Made by a program: the position numbers and the translations under genes. Positions 2,148 through 63,210 of a stretch of 64,000 bases of DNA are shown here, piece after piece. Numbering within the stretch: the first letter of the stretch is position 1; each line of letters starts with the position of its first letter. The stretch is from contig NC_073307.1 of the NCBI RefSeq assembly GCF_027595985.1, forward strand, positions 47,532,509 through 47,596,508. The letters are read 5' to 3'. Source of the DNA: Sorex araneus (taxonomy: Eukaryota > Chordata > Mammalia > Eulipotyphla > Soricidae). The notes below the pieces were generated by a model. It did not search any database. It had not been told where the DNA came from and saw only the letters and a program-made list of their open reading frames with translations.

Positions 2148-5100
2148 GTAAGACTCTCCCTCCCCGTGCCGGCCGGGCTCGGGATGGCCTGTCCAGAGTC
2201 CGGGGTGCCATCCAGGGGAAGGCTGCACAGCAGGGGAGGGCTCTCCTGGGAGTGGAGCAGCAGCCTGTGCCCAGAGCCTGAGGCACAGGAGTCTGGAGTA
2301 TGAAGAGCTGCTTGCCGGATTGCCAGGGTGGAGCCACAAGTCCCCATCAGCTCCCGGGCAGCACAGCACTGACCCCCGGACGCCCGCCCAGGGAGACTGC
2401 TGCTCAGGCCTCCGGCCCAGAGACTCATGGATGCGCGCAGGGGAGCGCCAGGTCCCACGTTCCGGCCAGCTGTGCTGGTGCTCTGACGACGGCTGACAGC
2501 TTGAGGTGGAATCCCAGCTGTTGACCCTGGTGTCCCTTTTATTACTGGGGCTGCTGCTGTCCCCAGGACATCAGGAGTGACTGATCCCCTTTTGCTTTTT
2601 TTTTATTATTATTGCAATCTGCAGTAAGAGATAGGTTTTGATCTTGATGCCCTGTATTAATCTGCATTTGTATGTGTATCTGGAACGGAAAACTTCCAGA
2701 GGATGGCACTTTTTCTTAGCAAGTGCAGACTGTTTTTTTAAAAACTTAACATGGTTCGAGGCCAGAGAGATAGTACAGTGGGTAGGCGCTGTCCTTGCAC
2801 GCCACCAACACGGGTTTGATCTCTGACATCCCATGTGGTCCCCCGAGCACAGCCAGAGGTAGTCTAAAAATAAAAACGAACTTAACAAGGGGCCAGAGAG
2901 AGAGTACAGGGGTTAAGGCCAGGCCTTGTGTTTGGCCGGCCTGGCTCAGTTCCTGGTACCACAGATGGTCCCTTTTAAGCACAGAGCCAGGAGTCAGCCC
3001 CGAGCACCTTAGTGTGGCCCACTCTCTCCTCCCCCAGAGGACCTCGTGTCGTGGCTCATGCTTGGCAAACAAGCCTCCTCACCAGTGCCCACTGACCGCT
3101 TCGCTGCCTCGGGGCCCAGGAATTGCTCTGTAGGCCCCTTAGATGGTGTTGAGCACTTAGCACAGAGCATCTCCTTCGCCAGAGAGTGGTAGCTCCTCTG
3201 CCACACCCTAGTGAGCAGCCGAGCCCCGGCTGCTGACACCCGCACCAGGCCGGAAGCTCTTCATTCTGGACTCCCTTGGGTGGCTTCCTGCTGCTCACCC
3301 AGGAGTGTTCTGGGACAGGGCCTCGGGCTGTGTCCACACCCGCTGGGCAGGGGGGAGCCGGGGCTGGCCACAGCACCTGAGTCCAGTGCCGGGCCGTTCG
3401 CAGGAGACGGCGGCGCCCTGGTGCGGCTGCTGCAGGAGGGCGGCTGCCGGCTGGAGGAGCTCGGCTCCTACGACGAGGAGCGCCTGCGGGGGCTGCTGCG
3501 CCGCTGTGCCATTCCCTTCACGGCCCAGGACTCCAAGGTGGGCTGGCAGTGCTGCGTCCCGGGGGTGGGCGTGGGCCCTGCGCTCGGGGGTCCTGGCTTT
3601 CCCCTTGGCACCGTGGCGCTTGCCCGCCACCCGCTCCTGCCGTGGTGTCCGGGAGGGGGGCAGTGCCCACACTTGAGCCTGTGCCGGGGTCACCCTCCCC
3701 CCTGTCGGAGTCCTCTGCTGCCGTCTTGGAGGGGGGAGCTCGGGCCTCCGGGTGTGACGGCTGGAGCTTGGCATGTCCCCGAGCCCGGGGCTGGCTGTGA
3801 CTGTGATCCTTTGCTGGCCGGCTGCTCTCGGCCGGCCCCACCCGGTGACCTCCTCCTCCTGCCCCAGGACCAGCTCTGCTTCTCTCTGCTGGCCCTCTAC
3901 AAGTCTGTCCAGAACGGAGCCAGAGCCACGCAGCCCCCACCCCACCTCACCGGGGGTAAGATCTACAAGGTGTGCCCCCACCAGGTAAGAGGAAGGCCGG
4001 GTTGGGTCCCTGGGGCTGGTGGGGGTCAGTGCCACCCCCGATCTCAGCGGGGGTATGCGGTGTCACTGCTCCTCGTGAGCGCTCTGAGGAAGCTGGTGGC
4101 AGGGGCAGCTATGCCCCTGTGCCAGCCCCCAGGAGGAGCCGGGGAAGGAACATCCCCACGGTAGCAGGAGACCAGAGGGGCGTCTGGCTTTCCTGAGGTT
4201 GGGTGGTGGAAGCCTTGGGCACCGTGGATAGCTGTGGTCTGTTCCGGGCTCTGGGACGGCCATGAGCCATGTGAGGTGGGACGGGGCCGAACAGGGGCTA
4301 AGAGTGGGGGTTTGCGTGGGCAGAGAAGGTCAGCCAGACCTCGCTCCCTCGAACAGGAGCGGCAGCCGAGGAAGCCCCGTGTTCAGAGGGTCCTGCCCCG
4401 GGGGTGAGAGACGACAGCTCTGAGCCGGGAGCCTGAGCGCCATGCAGGGAGGGGGGCAGTGCCAGGGAGAAGGCTCCGGGCCCAGGCTGCTCCAGCTGAG
4501 GTCTGGGTGCGTGAGGAGGGTGCCGGGAGGCCTGGGTGGGGACCAAGTCTGCTTCTGCTTTTCTCTTGGGGCAGGGGTGCGCGGGTGCCCCGGCTTAGTC
4601 AGAAGCAGGAGGGAAGTGGGCTGTCGCTCCAGCTGCGGGAGGAGCCCCGCAGAGCTCCCCTCACCCTGGCGTCCTCGTGTCCCCAGGTGGTGTGCGGCTC
4701 CAAGTACCTCGTTCGGGGCGAGAGCGCCCTGGACCACGTGGACCTGCTCGCCTCCTCGCGCCACTGGCCGCCTGTCTACGTGGTGGACATGGCCGCCCCC
4801 GTGGCCCTGTGTGCTGAGCTCTGCTACCCGGAGCTGACGAGCCAGATGTGGGGGAGGAACCAGGGCTGCTTCTCCAGCCCCACGGAGCCGCCCGTGGTGA
4901 GTCCCTGTCCGAGACTGCGGAACGGCACTGCGGAACGGCAGGCCGCGGCCCACACCCCACCACACGCCCTGCTGCCTCGGAGCCTCCATCCCTTTTCTCC
5001 ACTTCTCTTTTGCCTCCGTGGCCTGGAACCAGCATCTCCCTACTGACCAGTGGCCCTGGGATCATGGCGTGTCACAGCTGTGTGCCTGGGGGGCCGCGGG

Positions 5101-7173: not shown

Positions 7174-34308
<27,135 letters not shown>

Positions 34309-39364: not shown

Positions 39365-40030
39365 TCGGTAAAAAATGTTTTTCTGGGAATCTTGGGCCAG
39401 GGCCGGAGCCGGCTCGAGCTCCACGAGATTCGACCCGGGTGGCCATGCCTTTGCACAGCCGCTTGGCTGCTGAACAAGCAGGATCCAGAGCCAGCTATAT
39501 GACTTGGGGTTCCAGCGAGTGCTTGCAACCATGTATCCAGACTGTGAACTAAGCTTTTGCTCCATGCTGCTCCAGGAAGGGAAGTGATTCAATTTCCAAC
39601 TTAAATCTCCCTGGACTTAGCTATAAAATACAGAAATTGTAACCGCGTGACTTTTTTATCTCTTCATTCTCATCAGTGGAAAACTAATTATCAAATATTT
39701 CCCTGTCAATAAGGCTGTATTCTTGGGGGATAAATTCCAACAAGAATAGTGAGTTCTGTGTTGAAACTCCAACAACAATAGTGAGTTTTGTGTTGAAATA
39801 TGGAATGTAATCAAGGTAAAGAGAAAAGGAAGTGGAATTTATCAGTTATACAGGGGGGGTGTTTGGGAGGTGGGGGTGGGATGTATACTGGGTTTTTTTT
39901 TCGGTGGTGGAATATGGGCACTGGTGAAAGGACGGGTGTTTGAGCATCGTATAACTGAGACATAAGCCTGAGAACTTTGTAACTTTGCACATGGTGATTC
40001 AATAAAATAAATAAATAATTTTTTAAAATG
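39365..40030 (+). mobile_element. L1-ended retroposon, long copy
   Basis: GC-rich 5' part ('ccggagccggctcgagctcc', 'gattcgacccgggtggcc'), then the family's 3' half: 'gttgaaatatggaatgtaatc', 'atatgggcactggtgaa', 'cacatggtgattcaataaaa' and A/T-rich tail. Within it a 30-bp block (caacaa..gttgaaa) is repeated. Confidence 0.85.
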
Positions 40031-44022: not shown

Positions 44023-44221
44023 AAAAAGCAGCTATCCTTAATGTGAGAAGAGACAGATAGGAAACAACTCAGAGTTAAATCAACAGTAAAATACTGGGTA
44101 CTCTCCTCTTATATCAGGAACAATATTAGGGTTTCCAGTCTGGGCTCACTCTCACCTCTTCTATTCAGCATTGTACTGGAAGATCTAATCAGACTTATGC
44201 AAAGAAAAAGAACCAAAAGAC

Positions 44222-44871
44222 GGGGGGGGGGGTGGCACTGGAGTGGGGCAACACCAGCCCAGCCTCCAGGTGGTCCCGGCTGCTGGAAATCATGCCCTTG
44301 ACCCACCCTCAGCGCCATCTTGCCACATTCAACAGAGAAGAAGCCGGGCGTTCTGGTGAGCAATGCGGCCGGAGAATGCTCTGGACCTGAGACCGGGCCA
44401 GCAACACCGGGGATCCAGACGGAGGAGGTACAGCCAGCACACCTTCTCCAGATGGAGCCCTGGCGACACTGAGCAGCAACTAACACGGCTCCGGGATGCG
44501 GGACTGGGACAGCTCCGAACCGCGCCTGAGCGACCTTTTCTAAAAACTGAAAACATACAATCTTTTAATGGAAAACTAATTATCAAATGCTTCCTTGGTA
44601 GTAGGGCTGTCTTTCTTGGGGAGAAACTCCAACAACAATAGTGAATTTTGTGTTGAAATATGGAACGTAATCAAGGTAAAGAGAAAATGAAGTGAAATTC
44701 ATCAGTTATACAGTTGGGGGTGGGGGGCGGGGGCGGGGGGTATACTGGGGGTTTGGGTGGTGGAATATGGGCACTGGTGAATGGATGGGTGTTTGAATAT
44801 TGTATAGCTGAGACATAAACCTGAGAACTTTGTAACTTTCCACATGGTGATTCAATAAAAATTAAAAAAAA
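44222..44871 (+). mobile_element. L1-ended retroposon with intact 5' end
   Basis: About 650 bp, flanked by a 14-bp target-site duplication (44208-44221 and 44872-44885; one mismatch, 'caaaagac' core). 5' part: C/G-rich, YY1-type gccatcttg (44314-44322). 3' part: 'gttgaaatatggaacgtaatc', 'cacatggtgattcaataaaa' and poly(A). A close sister copy is at 49826-50418. Confidence 0.92.
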
Positions 44872-44968
44872 AAGAAACAAAAGACAGCCCACTTGAAAAG
44901 AAAGAAGTAAAGCTATCTCTATTCACAGCTGACATTACCCTATACACGGAAATGACCTAAAGAAAATT

Positions 44969-48160: not shown

Positions 48161-48239
48161 AAAAAAGAAATGCTGTGATGATACATATCACAACATGGAT
48201 GAACCTTCAAGACATGATGTTAAAAGAAGGGACCTCTAG

Positions 48240-48450
48240 GACAATGACAGTTGGAAATGATCACTCTAGACAAGAACTGTGTGCTGACATATATAATAAC
48301 CTTCTTGCACCTGTACTGCAAAGCATAATACCAAAAGGAGAGAGAGAATGAGAGAGAGAGAGAGAGGAGAGAAGAGGGAGAGAGACTGAAACCCAATCAT
48401 GAACAACTTTGTAATTGTGTATCTCACAATGATACAATGTCAAGTGAAAA
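48240..48450 (+). mobile_element. 3' UTR of the decayed L1
   Basis: 'gttggaaatgatcactctagac', 'gtactgcaaagcataatacc', GA run, 'actgaaacccaatcatgaac', 'cacaatgatacaatg'. Follows L1 ORF2-side sequence directly and resembles the 3' half of the retroposon family. Confidence 0.75.
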
Positions 48451-48645
48451 AAGTCCAATCAAAGGATCTCCAAATCACATTATGTATTCATTTGAAGCAC
48501 CCAGAATAGATGAAGTCTCAGATCCAGAAAGTGGATGCTGAGGAATGGGGAAGTATGCAATTTCCTTTGGGATTGAAGAAATGTCTTGGCAGCAGATGCA
48601 GGTGATGACGGTGCAACATTTCGGGGTACAAAATGCCACTGAGGG

Positions 48646-49650: not shown

Positions 49651-49825
49651 CAGGTAATCCCCAGTTCCACAGGGCGGGAACACTGCCACATCATCAGTCC
49701 TTGAATGGAGCTGCTAGCCTGGCTGGCTGAGGTCATCAGGAGAACGACCCCCAGGACAGGAGACCACTTGAGCACCAGGACACTTGAGCACCACTTGAAC
49801 CCTCCCCCACAAAAGAGGTAAATGT

Positions 49826-50418
49826 CTGGCCGCCGGAAGTCACGCCCTCGACCCACCCTCGGCGCCATCTTGCCACATTCAACAGAGAAGAAGCCGGGCG
49901 TTCTGGTGTGCAAAGCGGCCGGAGAATGCTCTGGACCCGAGACCGAGCCAACAACACCGGGGATCCAGACGGAGGAGGTACAGCCAGCACACCTTCTCCA
50001 GATGGAGCCCCGGCAACACTGAGCAGCAACTAACACGGCTCCGGGATGCGGGACTGGGACAGCTCCGAACCGTGCCCACGCGACCTTTTCTAAAAACTGA
50101 AAACATACAATCTTTTAATGGAAAACTAATTATCAAATTCTTCCTTGGTAGTAGGGCTGTCTTTCTTGGGGAGAAACTCCAACAACAATAGTGAGTTTTG
50201 TGTTGAAATATGGAACGTAATCAAGGTAAAGAGAAAATGAAGTGAAATTCATCAGTTATACAGTTGGGGATGGGGGGGGCGGGGGTGGGGGGTATACTGG
50301 GGTTTTTGGTGGTGGAATATGGGCACTGGTGAATGGATGGGTGTTTGAATATTGTATAAATGAGACATAAATCTGAGAACTTTGTAACTTTCCACATGGT
50401 GATTCAATAAAAATTAAA
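49826..50418 (+). mobile_element. L1-ended retroposon with promoter-like 5' end
   Basis: 593 bp between a perfect 15-bp target-site duplication aaaagaggtaaatgt (49811-49825 and 50419-50433). 5' end: ETS site ccggaagt (49833-49840) then YY1-type gccatcttg (49864-49872). 3' end: 'cacatggtgattcaataaaa' and poly(A). Little diverged from the copy at 44.2 kb. Confidence 0.94.
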
Positions 50419-50516
50419 AAAAGAGGTAAATGTTAAAAGTACTTTAGCTTATTTTTAATTTTTATCTAATTTTGCTTTTAACTCCTCAGAAAGATAAAAG
50501 ATCAAAGACTGTCTAA

Positions 50517-55850: not shown

Positions 55851-56639
55851 AAAACAACCAACCAATCTCACTCTAGTAGACTGGCCTACACAAAAGGTCC
55901 AGAAACAAACATTGTTGATGATGATGTGGCATGAAAGGAATCTTCGTCGACTGTTGGAGGGACTGTCATCTGGTCAGCCTGTATGGAAAGAGTATAGAGA
56001 CTCCTTCAAAAACTAAAACCAAAAATTCTATCTGACCCATTGTTTCTGCTTCTTGGCATCTACTGAAAAAAATTCAAAAACATTAGAAACTATTTGTATT
56101 CCTTATGCTTATTGCTGTTCATAATAGCCAAGACCTAGAACAACCCAAGTGCCAACCACAGATGAGTGGATAAAGAAACGATGGTCTGTACACACAATGG
56201 CACACTATCCAGCTATAGGAGCAGATGAAATCCTATTGTTTGCTATGTGCATGGAACGGGAGGGTATCAAGTGAGTCAAAGGGAGAAGACAAACACCAAA
56301 TGATCTCTTTTATATGTGGAGTATAAAGCAACATAGCAAGGGAACACACAATGGCCAATGAAAATACACCTTGACGGTCTGCCTAGAGAATCAAGTTTGC
56401 TAAGGGGTTGGGGGACCAGAAAGAGTCTCATCTTTCTGTGTAGGGGAAGTAGACACTGTGGTGGAGGGACACTGATACTCCCTGTTGTAGCATAGATATA
56501 GATAATACAGGTTGTAGGTATAGAATTCCTAAAACATTATTAGCATGATTGTCAATCACCATGCCAACATTTTAAAAACAGTGATTTGACAAATGTTGTT
56601 TTGATAAAAATAGAACAGCCAAGAGAAAGAAAAAAGCAT

Positions 56640-57405
56640 CTTAACACATCAACAGTCCTGGTCCAGAGACACAGCATGGAGTCCCAGAAGACACCACAGC
56701 GCTGAGATCTCTCTGGGTCCCATACCAAGCCAATTTCGCCAGGGCACCCCAGATGGAGCAGGTGCAGTCTCCCCGCCTATTCCAGATGGAATCCTGGTGA
56801 CCAAGAGCTCCCACAAGCAAGGCCCAGGTATGTGGGTTCCAGGACTAAATCTCCAGGTCACATGGTGGCAGAGGAGCACGACTGTCCCTCCCTGACTCCT
56901 CGCCCTCACAGCAGCCTGGCTGTCATGCCCACAATGTGCCTCTGGGCACCATCTTAGCGCACCAAAGCCCTGCTCCAGATTCCCATCTGAATCCCAAAAT
57001 GGATTAGTGTCCTACAGAGATGTCTATGGAACCCAACCATTTTACAATCTAGAATTCCAGAAGCGTGCATCCATTTTTGCAGCTCTCATGATATTCAAAA
57101 ATGAGCAATGGAAAACAAATTATCTAGTGTCTTCCCCTGGCAGGTAGGCTTGAATGGTGGTGGGAAAATTTGAGCAAACCATAATGCTCAAAAGTAGAGA
57201 GAGAGAGTATTGGGGAAATTGTCTGCCATCGAGGCAGGGTGAGGATGGGATGTGGGGGGTGGCGGGGGTGGATACTGGGGACATTGGGGGTGGAAAATGT
57301 GCACTGGTGGAGTGATGGGTGTTCAATCATTATATGGCTGAATCTCAAACATGAAAGCTTTGTAACTCCATCTCACGGTGATTTAATAAGACAAAATTTT
57401 TAAAA
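56640..57405 (+). mobile_element. L1-ended retroposon, older long copy
   Basis: 5' part includes 'gccagggcaccccagatggagc' and 'gggcaccatcttagcgc' (YY1-like). 3' part: 'tggtgggaaaatttgagcaaacc', 'gtctgccatcgaggcaggg', 'tgtgcactggtggag', 'ctcacggtgatttaataag'. Confidence 0.82.
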
Positions 57406-57569
57406 GAAGAAAAAGAAAAAAGACATAAATGACAAATATCAAGAATGAAAGATTCTGGTTAAGTATGTCACATCAGGAAGATCTTCAACTCTCAGGGACA
57501 TGCAGAGTTTCTTGTTACTTAAGAAATAGTTTTCTCTTTAAAACAAAAAATGGGTTGGTTGGTTGGTTG

Positions 57570-58045
57570 CCGCCCATGAACGACTCCTCCGGCTCCTGAA
57601 CAGCCATGATCCCAGAGGCACACAAACCAATCTCGGAACCCAGCGGCTTTTGGCAGAAATCCCTCCAGACTTAATTACTAAAATATCAGAAACCCCAAAT
57701 CATGCAGCCACGAAATCGGCCGCATGACGTCATATGCTTTTCACAATCAGCAATAGAAAACAAATTATCTAATATGCCTTTTCAGCAGGTCTGATTGTTG
57801 GGAGAAAATTCCAAATAATAATGGTGTGTCTTTTGTCGAAGTGTTGAATTAATCAAAGCAGAGAGAGAGTAAAGTAGAAATCATTTGCCATACAGGCAGG
57901 GGGAGGGGTGGGATGGGGGTTCTTGGGGGTGGAAAATGTGCACTGGTGAAGGGATGGGTGTTTGATCATCGTATAACTGAGGCTTAAACTTGAAAGCTTT
58001 GTAACTGTTCTCATAGTGATTCAATAAATTAAAATAAAAAAAGAG
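57570..58045 (+). mobile_element. L1-ended retroposon
   Basis: 5' part 'gccgcccatgaacgactcctcc' to 'gccgcatgacgtcat' (CRE-like TGACGTCA at about 57725). 3' part 'cagggggaggggtgg', 'tgtgcactggtgaaggg', 'catagtgattcaataaa'. Outer repeat 'aatgggttggtt' at 57549-57560 and 58223-58234 encloses this element plus the next SINE. Confidence 0.88.
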
Positions 58046-60298: not shown

Positions 60299-61583
60299 AA
60301 AAAAGTCTTTCTTTTTTTTTTTTTTTTTTTTTAAATTTTATTGAATCACCATGTGGAGGGTTACATAGTTCTCAGGATTATGTCGGTTATACAGTTCTCA
60401 AACACCCTTCACTTCACCAGTGCCCATCTTCCATCACCAACCCCCCCAGTATACCTGCCACCCCCTCCCACCTCCCCAGTCCCAACCCTTGCACATATGT
60501 TTCACTTCGTTTACGCCTTATTTCGATTACATTCCATGTTTCAACACACAACTCACTACCGTTGTTGGGGTTTCCCCCAAAAAAGAAAAGCAGTCCTATT
60601 GCCAAGGAGGCATTTGATAGTTCTCCATTGCTAAGAATATAGAGATATTAAGTCCCGCTGTTTGTTACATAGTTTTTCTTTTTCCCCCTTGCCCCGCGCC
60701 ACCGAGTTCACGCCTGTTTTAGTAATCTCCACGCTGCCTGACAAGGGAAAAAAAAACCGAAAAGGATGGTTATTTCCCGTCATCAGCAGGCGTGGGGCTC
60801 TGGCTTAGTTGATAGACTTGTAGAGTATCTGCAAGCAGTCTCTGGAACCGAAGGTCTTGCGCTGGTATCGGCTCCGGCTCGAGATTCCACCAGCGTCCCG
60901 CTGTTCCTTGTACATAATTTTTCCCCTTATATCCCATTCCCACGCCACCAGGTCTGTTTGCTTAATGGACATCACACTGTAGTTGATGACACACCGCGTT
61001 TCTTCCCGAGAAAGAAGAAAATTTCCTCTCGGCCGGCGTGGGGATATAGCTTAGTTCAGTCTAGTGAGATGGCTACCACTTTGATTGCCTTCAATATTTC
61101 AGCAACAGACTTACTATTAGGATCTCCCACAAAAGTCCGCCCCATTAGAAAGGAACCATTACATAATGCTCATACTAAGATAACATTAAGTCGCGCGGCC
61201 GCAGCAGCGGCCGCGCGGTTTTGGGTTTCTGTATAAAGTCCAGGGAAAGTACAACCAGAAATAACATCACTACAAACTTTTACCCTTTTATGGTGCTCAT
61301 AAGATGGAGAAACCTAGAGAGAGGCTCGGCGTCTCCGTTTTGCGCTCAGGAAAACCGCGGCCCCTGCGCTGTGCTCAGGAGGGAGGAGTTGAGAGAGAGA
61401 CAGGTTAAAAGAATTGGGGGATGCCCGGGTCCCACAGCTTCAGCACGCCGTGGGGTCTCTGGTCCCATGCCGGAATTAGTTCAGTGGGCTGCTTGGGGTC
61501 CGAGGGCGCTCCCTCGGGCCCCTCCATCATGCTCCTTCCACAGCCGGGTCCAAAAGGCTAAAAAAAAAAAAAGTCTTTCTTTT
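60299..61583 (-). mobile_element. L1-ended retroposon, 1.25-kb copy with target-site duplication
   Basis: Target-site duplication aaaaaagtctttctttt (60299-60315 and 61567-61583). On - it starts GC-rich near 61566 and ends 'cacatggtgattcaataaaa' plus A-run near 60316. It holds two similar cassettes, each with 'aacagcggga(c)' and 'gggaaaaa' text, so it looks internally duplicated. A CpG-rich inverted repeat lies at 61192-61217. Confidence 0.9.
61192..61217. repeat. CpG-rich perfect inverted repeat
   Basis: 11-nt arms CGCGCGGCCGC / GCGGCCGCGCG around AGCA; contains two GCGGCCGC octamers. Confidence 0.95.
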
Positions 61584-62257: not shown

Positions 62258-63210
62258 GTATCACTGTATCACTGTCATCCGTTGAGCAGGCACCAGTAAC
62301 GTCTCTATTTGTCCCAGCCCTGAGATTTTTTTTAAGTTATTTATTTTATTGAATCACCATGTGGAAAGTTACAAAGTTCTCAGGCTTATGTCTCAGTTAT
62401 ACAATGCTCAAACACCTGTCCCTTCACCAGTGCCCATATTCCACCACCAAAAACCCCAGTATACCTCCCACCCCTCGCCCCCCCCCACCCCCGCCTGCAT
62501 AACTGATAAATTTCACTTCATTTTCTCTTTACCTTGATTACATTCCATATTTCAACACAAAACTCACTATTATTGTTGGAGTTTCTCCCCAAAAAAGACA
62601 GCCCTACTGCCAAGGAAGCATTTGATAATTAGTTTTCCATTGCTGAGAATGAAGAGATATGAAGTCCCGCTGTTCCGAGTACATAACTCTTTTTTTTCTC
62701 CTTCCCGCACCACCAAGTTCGTACCTGCTTAATAGTTCTCATAATATGGCAGACACTACGCCGCTTCTCCCCAAAAAGGGAAAAAAAAAAAACGAGAAAG
62801 AAGGATCTTTCCCTTCCTCGGCCTGCGTGGGGCTATGGCTTACTTCACAGTCTAGAGACATGGCTGCAAGCAGTTTCTGGGACCAGAAGTAGTCTAGCTG
62901 GCCTCCGGATCCTGGTCAATCAGCAGCAAAGCGGCCGCACAAAAGTGTGGCCACCCAGGTCGAATCTCGGCAGAGCGTGCGCCGGTATTGGCCCCGGCCC
63001 GAGACTACCCAAGCGTCCCCCAGCCCTGAGATTTTAGCAGCCTCTGCTTACTCATCTTTCCCAATGGTAGGAGGCTCTTTCAGAGTCAGGGGAATAAGAC
63101 CTATTATTGTTACTGTATTTGGCATAAGGAATATGCCACGGAGAGCTTGTCAGGCTCTTCTGTTTGGGGGGAATACTCTGGATAGCTTGCCAGTCTCTCT
63201 GAGAGGGACG
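62258..63210 (-). mobile_element. SOR-2 SINE (long variant) split by a retroposon
   Basis: Halves at 62258-62329 and 63019-63210 join across the 17-bp duplication cccagccctgagatttt. Tail (ACAGTGAT)n at the left; the tRNA head is missing at the right. Confidence 0.88.
62330..63018 (-). mobile_element. L1-ended retroposon nested in SOR-2
   Basis: 689 bp between the two copies of the target-site duplication (62313-62329 and 63019-63035). The 5' end on - is 'gggacgcttgggtagtctcgg'; the 3' end is 'cacatggtgattcaataaaa' and A-run. Contains GCGGCCGC at about 62931. Confidence 0.93.

Follow-up and report, generated by a model that had tools for sequence, protein, structure and literature searches.

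What kind of element is the 593-bp sequence at positions 49826-50418 of the window, i.e. of the whole 64,000-nucleotide stretch of the Sorex araneus genome that was analysed? The earlier note had described it as an L1 reduced to its 5' UTR plus 3' UTR, moved in trans and transcribed from its own pol II promoter. The analysis reported here leads to a different description: we consider it probable that this sequence (copy A) belongs to a non-autonomous, ORF-less lineage of composite retroposons, mobilized by L1, which carries tandem monomers that are probably pol II promoters and which has undergone head exchange.

The limits of copy A are well defined. The exact 15-mer AAAAGAGGTAAATGT occurs twice in the whole window, at 49811-49825 (5' target-site duplication, + strand) and at 50419-50433 (3' duplication, +), so that the element does lie between perfect duplications, as first proposed. 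It is also non-coding, as had been stated: neither of its two open frames gave a Pfam match at E<=0.01, no ORF1 domain was found, and protein coding was therefore ruled out. A comparison of 49826-50418 with Rfam gave no match at E<=0.5 within the element, nor any Alu-like part; nothing in copy A thus points to a pol III gene, and a pol III SINE with a tRNA, 7SL or 5S head was rejected as an identification. The AATAAA signal is present at 50406-50411 (+), while the poly(A) said to follow it is weak, consisting of three A before the duplication, or seven if the leading As of the duplication itself are included. The ratio of observed to expected CpG is 0.85 in the head of copy A, compared with 0.23 for its 3' half and 0.40 for the window as a whole. 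The surroundings of copy A include a CSF1R-like receptor gene (11909-12412, - strand), residues 61-106 of which match CSF1R structures (E=3.6e-25), and many copies of a SINE densely scattered over the window.

A search of the genome assembly (2.406 Gb, 65 contigs) with copy A as the query gave 7304 first-look candidates, and all of the 40 places that were scored, copies A and B (see below) among them, match it at 90-100%. Copy A is therefore a member of a family, many copies of which have the 5' sequence in common, as the original reading had supposed. Thirty copies were fetched, A and B included, and in every one of them the head joins the core and tail directly or within 4 bp. The mean pairwise difference among these copies is 4.4% in the 3' module, with transitions about as frequent as transversions, and 9.6% in the head, where transitions prevail; as the fetched copies are those most like the query, the average divergence of the family is probably higher. 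Fragments of reverse transcriptase genes were observed near two family copies, at L021 (about 3279, - strand) and L031 (- strand); we take them to be RTE/BovB-like, in which case the genome would seem to hold an RTE-type family besides L1. No shrew element of this kind was found in titles and abstracts of the open-licence literature, among the matches listed, although this does not prove that none has been described.

The head of copy A (49826-50073, +) is one unit of a tandem repeat of about 296 bp. One or two further head pieces, in the same orientation, are present upstream in 19 of the 30 fetched copies, with a linker of about 48-60 bp between tandem units. When mapped on the 296-bp unit, which was taken from locus L027, the head of copy A begins at unit position 295 and represents the last and only monomer of this copy. 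Upstream units resemble the head only up to about position 245 (the match ends at approximately 243-248, where the linker begins), and the roughly 43 bp preceding the core are exclusive to the last unit. This tether-like segment, joining the last monomer to the core, occupies 50074-50116 (+) in copy A. The first unit of the tandem arrays is truncated at its 5' end, and these 19 copies therefore display the layout of a monomer-type promoter.

These observations bear directly on the promoter-like start ascribed to copy A. Both motifs are located where they had been placed: CCGGAAGT, which contains a CpG and is exact in 16 of the 30 copies, at 49833-49840 (+), and the YY1-like GCCATCTTG, exact in the last monomer of 25/30 copies, at 49864-49872 (+). 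The former we call ETS-like, following the earlier note. However, since the head is a tandem unit, CCGGAAGT lies at the 5' end of copy A and not at the start of the family, and a fixed 5' start at this motif was rejected because the 5' ends of the copies are scattered over the unit. To map these ends, 26 of the 30 copies were used in which a duplication of at least 8 bp was found near the first head piece, and five of them were dropped because of more than 8 unmatched bases; the 21 remaining starts are at unit positions 3, 19, 30, 38, 60, 141, 142, 161, 161, 162, 163, 163, 169, 178, 189, 190, 247, 269, 289, 293 and 295. They are scattered but clustered: the densest 30-bp window contains nine of the 21 starts (p=0.006 in a uniform simulation) and the densest 5-bp window five (161-163; p=0.004), with the qualifications that starts within the last unit are under-sampled, the query spanning the whole last unit and copies having been chosen by likeness to it, that L028 is ambiguous, that 8-bp matches were counted without a chance control, and that A-tracts can blur the edges of duplications.

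In copy A, the stretch equivalent to the cluster at 161-163, where five of the 21 mapped copies have their 5' ends, is at 49988-50005 (+) and leads from unit position 161 into CCAGATGG, which lies at +11 to +18 counted from the 161 start. Human L1 has a YY1 site at nt 9-20 (PMC11602158), and CCAGATGG may be a candidate YY1-like site near a clustered start. The motif CCATCTT was present in 5/9 heads against an expectation of 0.30, and none of 2000 shuffles reached five, although it was picked after seeing the sequences, is missing from the other four heads, and the heads are partly related and thus not all independent. CCATCTT or its complement was also found in 8 of 30 L1 upstream stretches of about 1 kb. 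As judged from sequence, the head monomers are probably pol II promoters.

Evidence for L1-type retroposition, as proposed in the original reading, came from several features of the family. A duplication of at least 8 bp is present at the edge of the head in 21/30 copies, and in 19 of them it reaches 10 bp or more; it should be noted that a previous count of 27/30 (duplications of at least 7 bp) was dropped, as it included far-off matches (L021, L022). Thirteen of the 20 listed duplications begin with AA, a count that A-tails can blur. In addition, the 5' end of L010 contains head sequence in inverted orientation, and 5' inversion arises in L1 twin priming. The family thus shows target-site duplications that vary in length, insertion at A-rich sites, an A-rich 3' end and a 5' inversion, and the duplications, the AA starts and the inversion in L010 support insertion of the L1 type.

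The 3' module of copy A consists of a core that is shared with the other copies (50117-50215, +; it begins with AATGGAAAAC) and of a tail (50216-50413, +) that resembles the L1 3' UTR. The earlier note had compared the 3' half with an L1 3' UTR at 48.24 kb, and this likeness holds for the region of the tail. The profile of the 3' module matched L1 3' ends with E=1.1e-24 in L031 and with E=3.5e-25 to 2.2e-18 in the four L1 loci L062-L065 (L045, L036, L048 and L033, re-fetched at about 9 kb; the 3' end of L065 was set by position, since its ORF2 is broken). The alignments begin at about position 98-109 of the profile, and the distal 195 bp or so of the module resembles the genome's own L1 3' UTR in all five L1 3' ends examined (L031, L062-L065); pieces of the tail aligned by blastn to L1 3' ends are 78-81% identical over 77-92 bp. 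In contrast, the core, i.e. approximately the first 99 bp of the module, remained unmatched at E<=1e-3 in L062-L065, the four L1 loci fetched at full length; a weak match spanning the core (E=0.002) was obtained on the opposite strand of the sequence flanking L064. The general view is that mammalian L1 requires little beyond poly(A), and the presence of an L1-related tail is notable for this reason. As for the sequence at 48.24 kb itself, the element to which it belongs (48204-48459, limits set by eye) is truncated, has a tail of the L1 type and, as judged by eye, seems to be nested in the 3' end of what is probably an older L1. The anatomy of the lineage is therefore as follows: a GC- and CpG-rich unit of about 296 bp (5'-truncated, and in many copies tandemly repeated), a joining segment of about 43 bp, a core of about 99 bp, an L1-3'UTR-related tail of about 195 bp, AATAAA and an A-rich tract.

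A deletion derivative, in which the 5' UTR and 3' UTR of a single L1 subfamily were joined by loss of both ORFs and the product was amplified in trans, is the explanation closest to the original reading. The L1-like tail agrees with it, and so does the layout of a monomer array followed by a joining segment, which is that of the mouse L1 5' UTR (PMC9022269). To look for the head in L1, 13300 candidates were obtained with the PF02994 (L1 ORF1) profile, 150 were scored and 30 loci were fetched; these are high-scoring and mostly young L1s, older ones being hardly represented. In none of the 30 loci did a search of both strands reveal any head type upstream of ORF1. At least 17 of these loci keep the young L1 leader, a lower bound because the frame picked was on the wrong strand in L041, L055, L058, L059 and L061, so that the effective test of the 5' UTR comprises some 17 young loci. 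One of the loci, L062, has L1 ORF1, endonuclease and RT domains, and in another, L049, the open frame is of 699 aa, about twice the usual 351 aa.

The 5' UTR of the young L1s is a different GC-rich sequence, which is tandem in two of the eight examined (L047 and L060, with units 142-143 bp apart). These tandem units lend some plausibility to an L1 origin of the head, but they do not match it. The only strong head match among the L1 loci is in L038, where A-type head units are found at 3019-3288, about 1.2 kb downstream of the L1 ORF1 domain; these units probably belong to a composite that was inserted there. Weak matches of the other heads obtained by blastn were discarded as short, of low complexity or outside the L1; they comprise 23 bp of the C head in each of L060, L033 and L065, and matches of the G and F heads in L064, which lie beyond its L1 3' end. 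An origin of the head from the 5' UTR of the sampled L1s was thus rejected. With respect to L1, copy A has 3' UTR homology (5/5 3' ends), no 5' UTR homology (30 loci, at least 17 with leader) and no coding homology (no Pfam match in its two frames). Of the description as an L1 reduced to both its UTRs, the L1-like 3' end stands, and the identification of the 5' half as an L1 5' UTR is not supported (0/30 loci upstream of ORF1). Considering also that the core is unmatched at E<=1e-3 in L062-L065 and that the tail tree described below sets the L1 3' ends (100%) apart from the tails of A, C and E (98%), the deletion derivative appears unlikely.

The core profile gave nine matches in the window, at seven copies, of which E has two and D an extra internal fragment. 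Copy B (44222-44877, +) has the A-type head, begins near the unit linker and is 95.3% identical to A over 591 bp (44278-44866); an 8-bp duplication, CAAAAGAC, at 44214 and 44878 is modest evidence of its limits. Copy C (62330-63018, -), delimited by exact 17-bp duplications (62313-62329 and 63019-63035), has a different head on the common core and tail. Copy D (60316-61566, -), likewise between exact 17-bp duplications (60299-60315 and 61567-61583), proved, by comparison with itself and with C, to contain partly repeated C-related units and, 5'-most, a further head segment, with a partial core (61167-61078, -) between this segment and the C-type units; because of this internal partial core, it appears that composites can stack. 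Copy E (39390-40015, +; 5' limit approximate) has a C-related head, core and tail, and its two overlapping core-profile matches (39676-39805) suggest that a short stretch has been duplicated internally. Copy F (56598-57425, +; approximate limits) looks old and has core, tail and a head that is distantly related to that of A (56637-56837; head profile E=3e-14); the 8-bp sequence TGACAAAT at 56587 and 57430 is a weak indication of a duplication. Finally, copy G (57560-58040, +; 5' limit approximate) has yet another head on the common core and tail. No duplication was found around copies E and G. In summary, the heads of C, D and E are mutually related and that of G is different. Sequence flanking L004 was found by chance to contain three further copies of the core, and L028 an incomplete one.

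The sequence that immediately precedes the core also varies. It is CTTCATTCTCAGC in C and in the three L004 copies (in one of them with an additional A), similar in D, E and G, and different in F and in A, the family of which has ACAATCTTTT. This is relevant to the possibility that a spliced L1 RNA was copied back and then amplified, in the manner of a SpIRE. Four of nine heads (C and the three near L004) end in CTTCATTCTCAGC, or in the same sequence plus one A, which resembles a splice acceptor, and E nearly does so. However, the different sequence before the core in the A family does not fit such an origin, and neither does the failure to find the head before ORF1 in the sampled L1s, as a SpIRE would contain a splice junction between the L1 5' UTR and downstream L1 sequence. 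In addition, SpIREs are described as typically dead on arrival (PMC13174262), whereas the A family has been amplified. It is therefore very improbable that the composites arose in this way.

The history of the 3' module was examined with a tree of the tails, built from 24 hand-chosen rows of about 200 bp. Five L1 3' ends and one other L1-like tail group together (100%), apart from the tails of A, C and E (98%), and the whole tree takes the shape of a ladder from L1 to F/H, G, the L004 copies, D, and lastly C/E and A, with supports of 51-98%; some nodes are weak, and the very long branch of one badly extracted row (x_L019) distorts the midpoint rooting. The tail of A groups with those of C and E (98%), while its head resembles that of F. 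This mismatch between head and tail in copy A suggests an exchange of heads between sublineages.

One 3' module combined with several 5' modules, followed by a polyadenylation signal, could also be expected if the copies had been retrocopied from a host gene for a non-coding RNA that has alternative first exons but a single last exon. We give this explanation little credence, since tandem truncated monomers and clustered starts inside the monomer fit a self-propagating internal promoter better, and the tail is L1-like.

How, then, does a composite retroposon lineage of this kind compare with known systems? HAL1 (half-L1) elements are partial L1s that share with it an L1 3' end, but they keep ORF1, and the shrew element has no ORF1 domain. 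SpIREs are similar in being L1-related, internally deleted and inserted by L1, but they originate when L1 RNA is spliced internally, and as a rule they are dead on arrival (PMC13174262 and PMC5860796), unlike the amplified shrew family; neither 'shrew' nor 'Sorex' occurs in the main text of PMC13174262. The 5' UTR of mouse L1 (Tf/A/Gf) likewise has tandem promoter units in variable number, a 5'-truncated first unit and a joining tether, and in the Tf unit a putative YY1 motif, GCCATCTT, is at nts 80-87 and starts are clustered at 70-110 (PMC9022269). However, the mouse units drive ORF1/ORF2, whereas the shrew unit of about 296 bp precedes no ORF, and none of the sampled L1s showed it upstream of ORF1. 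SVA and LAVA are non-autonomous composites mobilized by L1 (PMC7353768); like the shrew element, they have a tandem-repeat domain and form families that share modules, and LAVA ends in an L1ME fragment (PMC4432496). The same paper describes them as hominoid-specific, with a CT-repeat/Alu-like 5' end, repeats of 30-50 bp and variant 3' ends. In the shrew element, in contrast, it is the 5' head that varies, the unit measures about 296 bp and Rfam revealed no Alu-like part; the combination of 5' CT repeat, Alu-like region and GC-rich central VNTR with 30-50 bp units is absent. Because defining features of each are lacking, the element was assigned neither to the SVA/LAVA type nor to the mouse L1 type; in its construction it resembles a cross of SVA/LAVA with the 5' UTR of mouse L1, and it looks like a separate lineage that parallels both SVA/LAVA and the promoters of mouse L1.

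The copies themselves display tandem units, 5' ends that cluster, target-site duplications and a tail like that of L1, and a mode of propagation can be proposed that would account for them. Pol II would start inside a unit, guided by the YY1- and ETS-like sites, and as a result each new copy would lose part of its first unit and keep the promoters downstream. The polyadenylated RNA would then be copied in trans by the L1 ORF2p. Over time, the lineage would have exchanged its heads while retaining core and tail.

A broader hypothesis, which we advance tentatively and hold to be somewhat short of an even chance, is that all these copies represent a single ORF-less lineage, a long-lived parasite of L1 in shrews, the tail of which has drifted from that of the host L1 while the tandem promoter head was repeatedly replaced. 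If this is true, the promoter turnover known inside mouse L1 takes place in an element without genes. Composites with a tandem-repeat domain have been described as hominoid-specific (PMC4432496), and the shrew case would be a separate one. Combining several types of head with a single core and tail, the shrew composites would provide an independent system for the study of what makes an RNA a good trans substrate for L1, and they would also address the question of why promoter monomers repeat and turn over.
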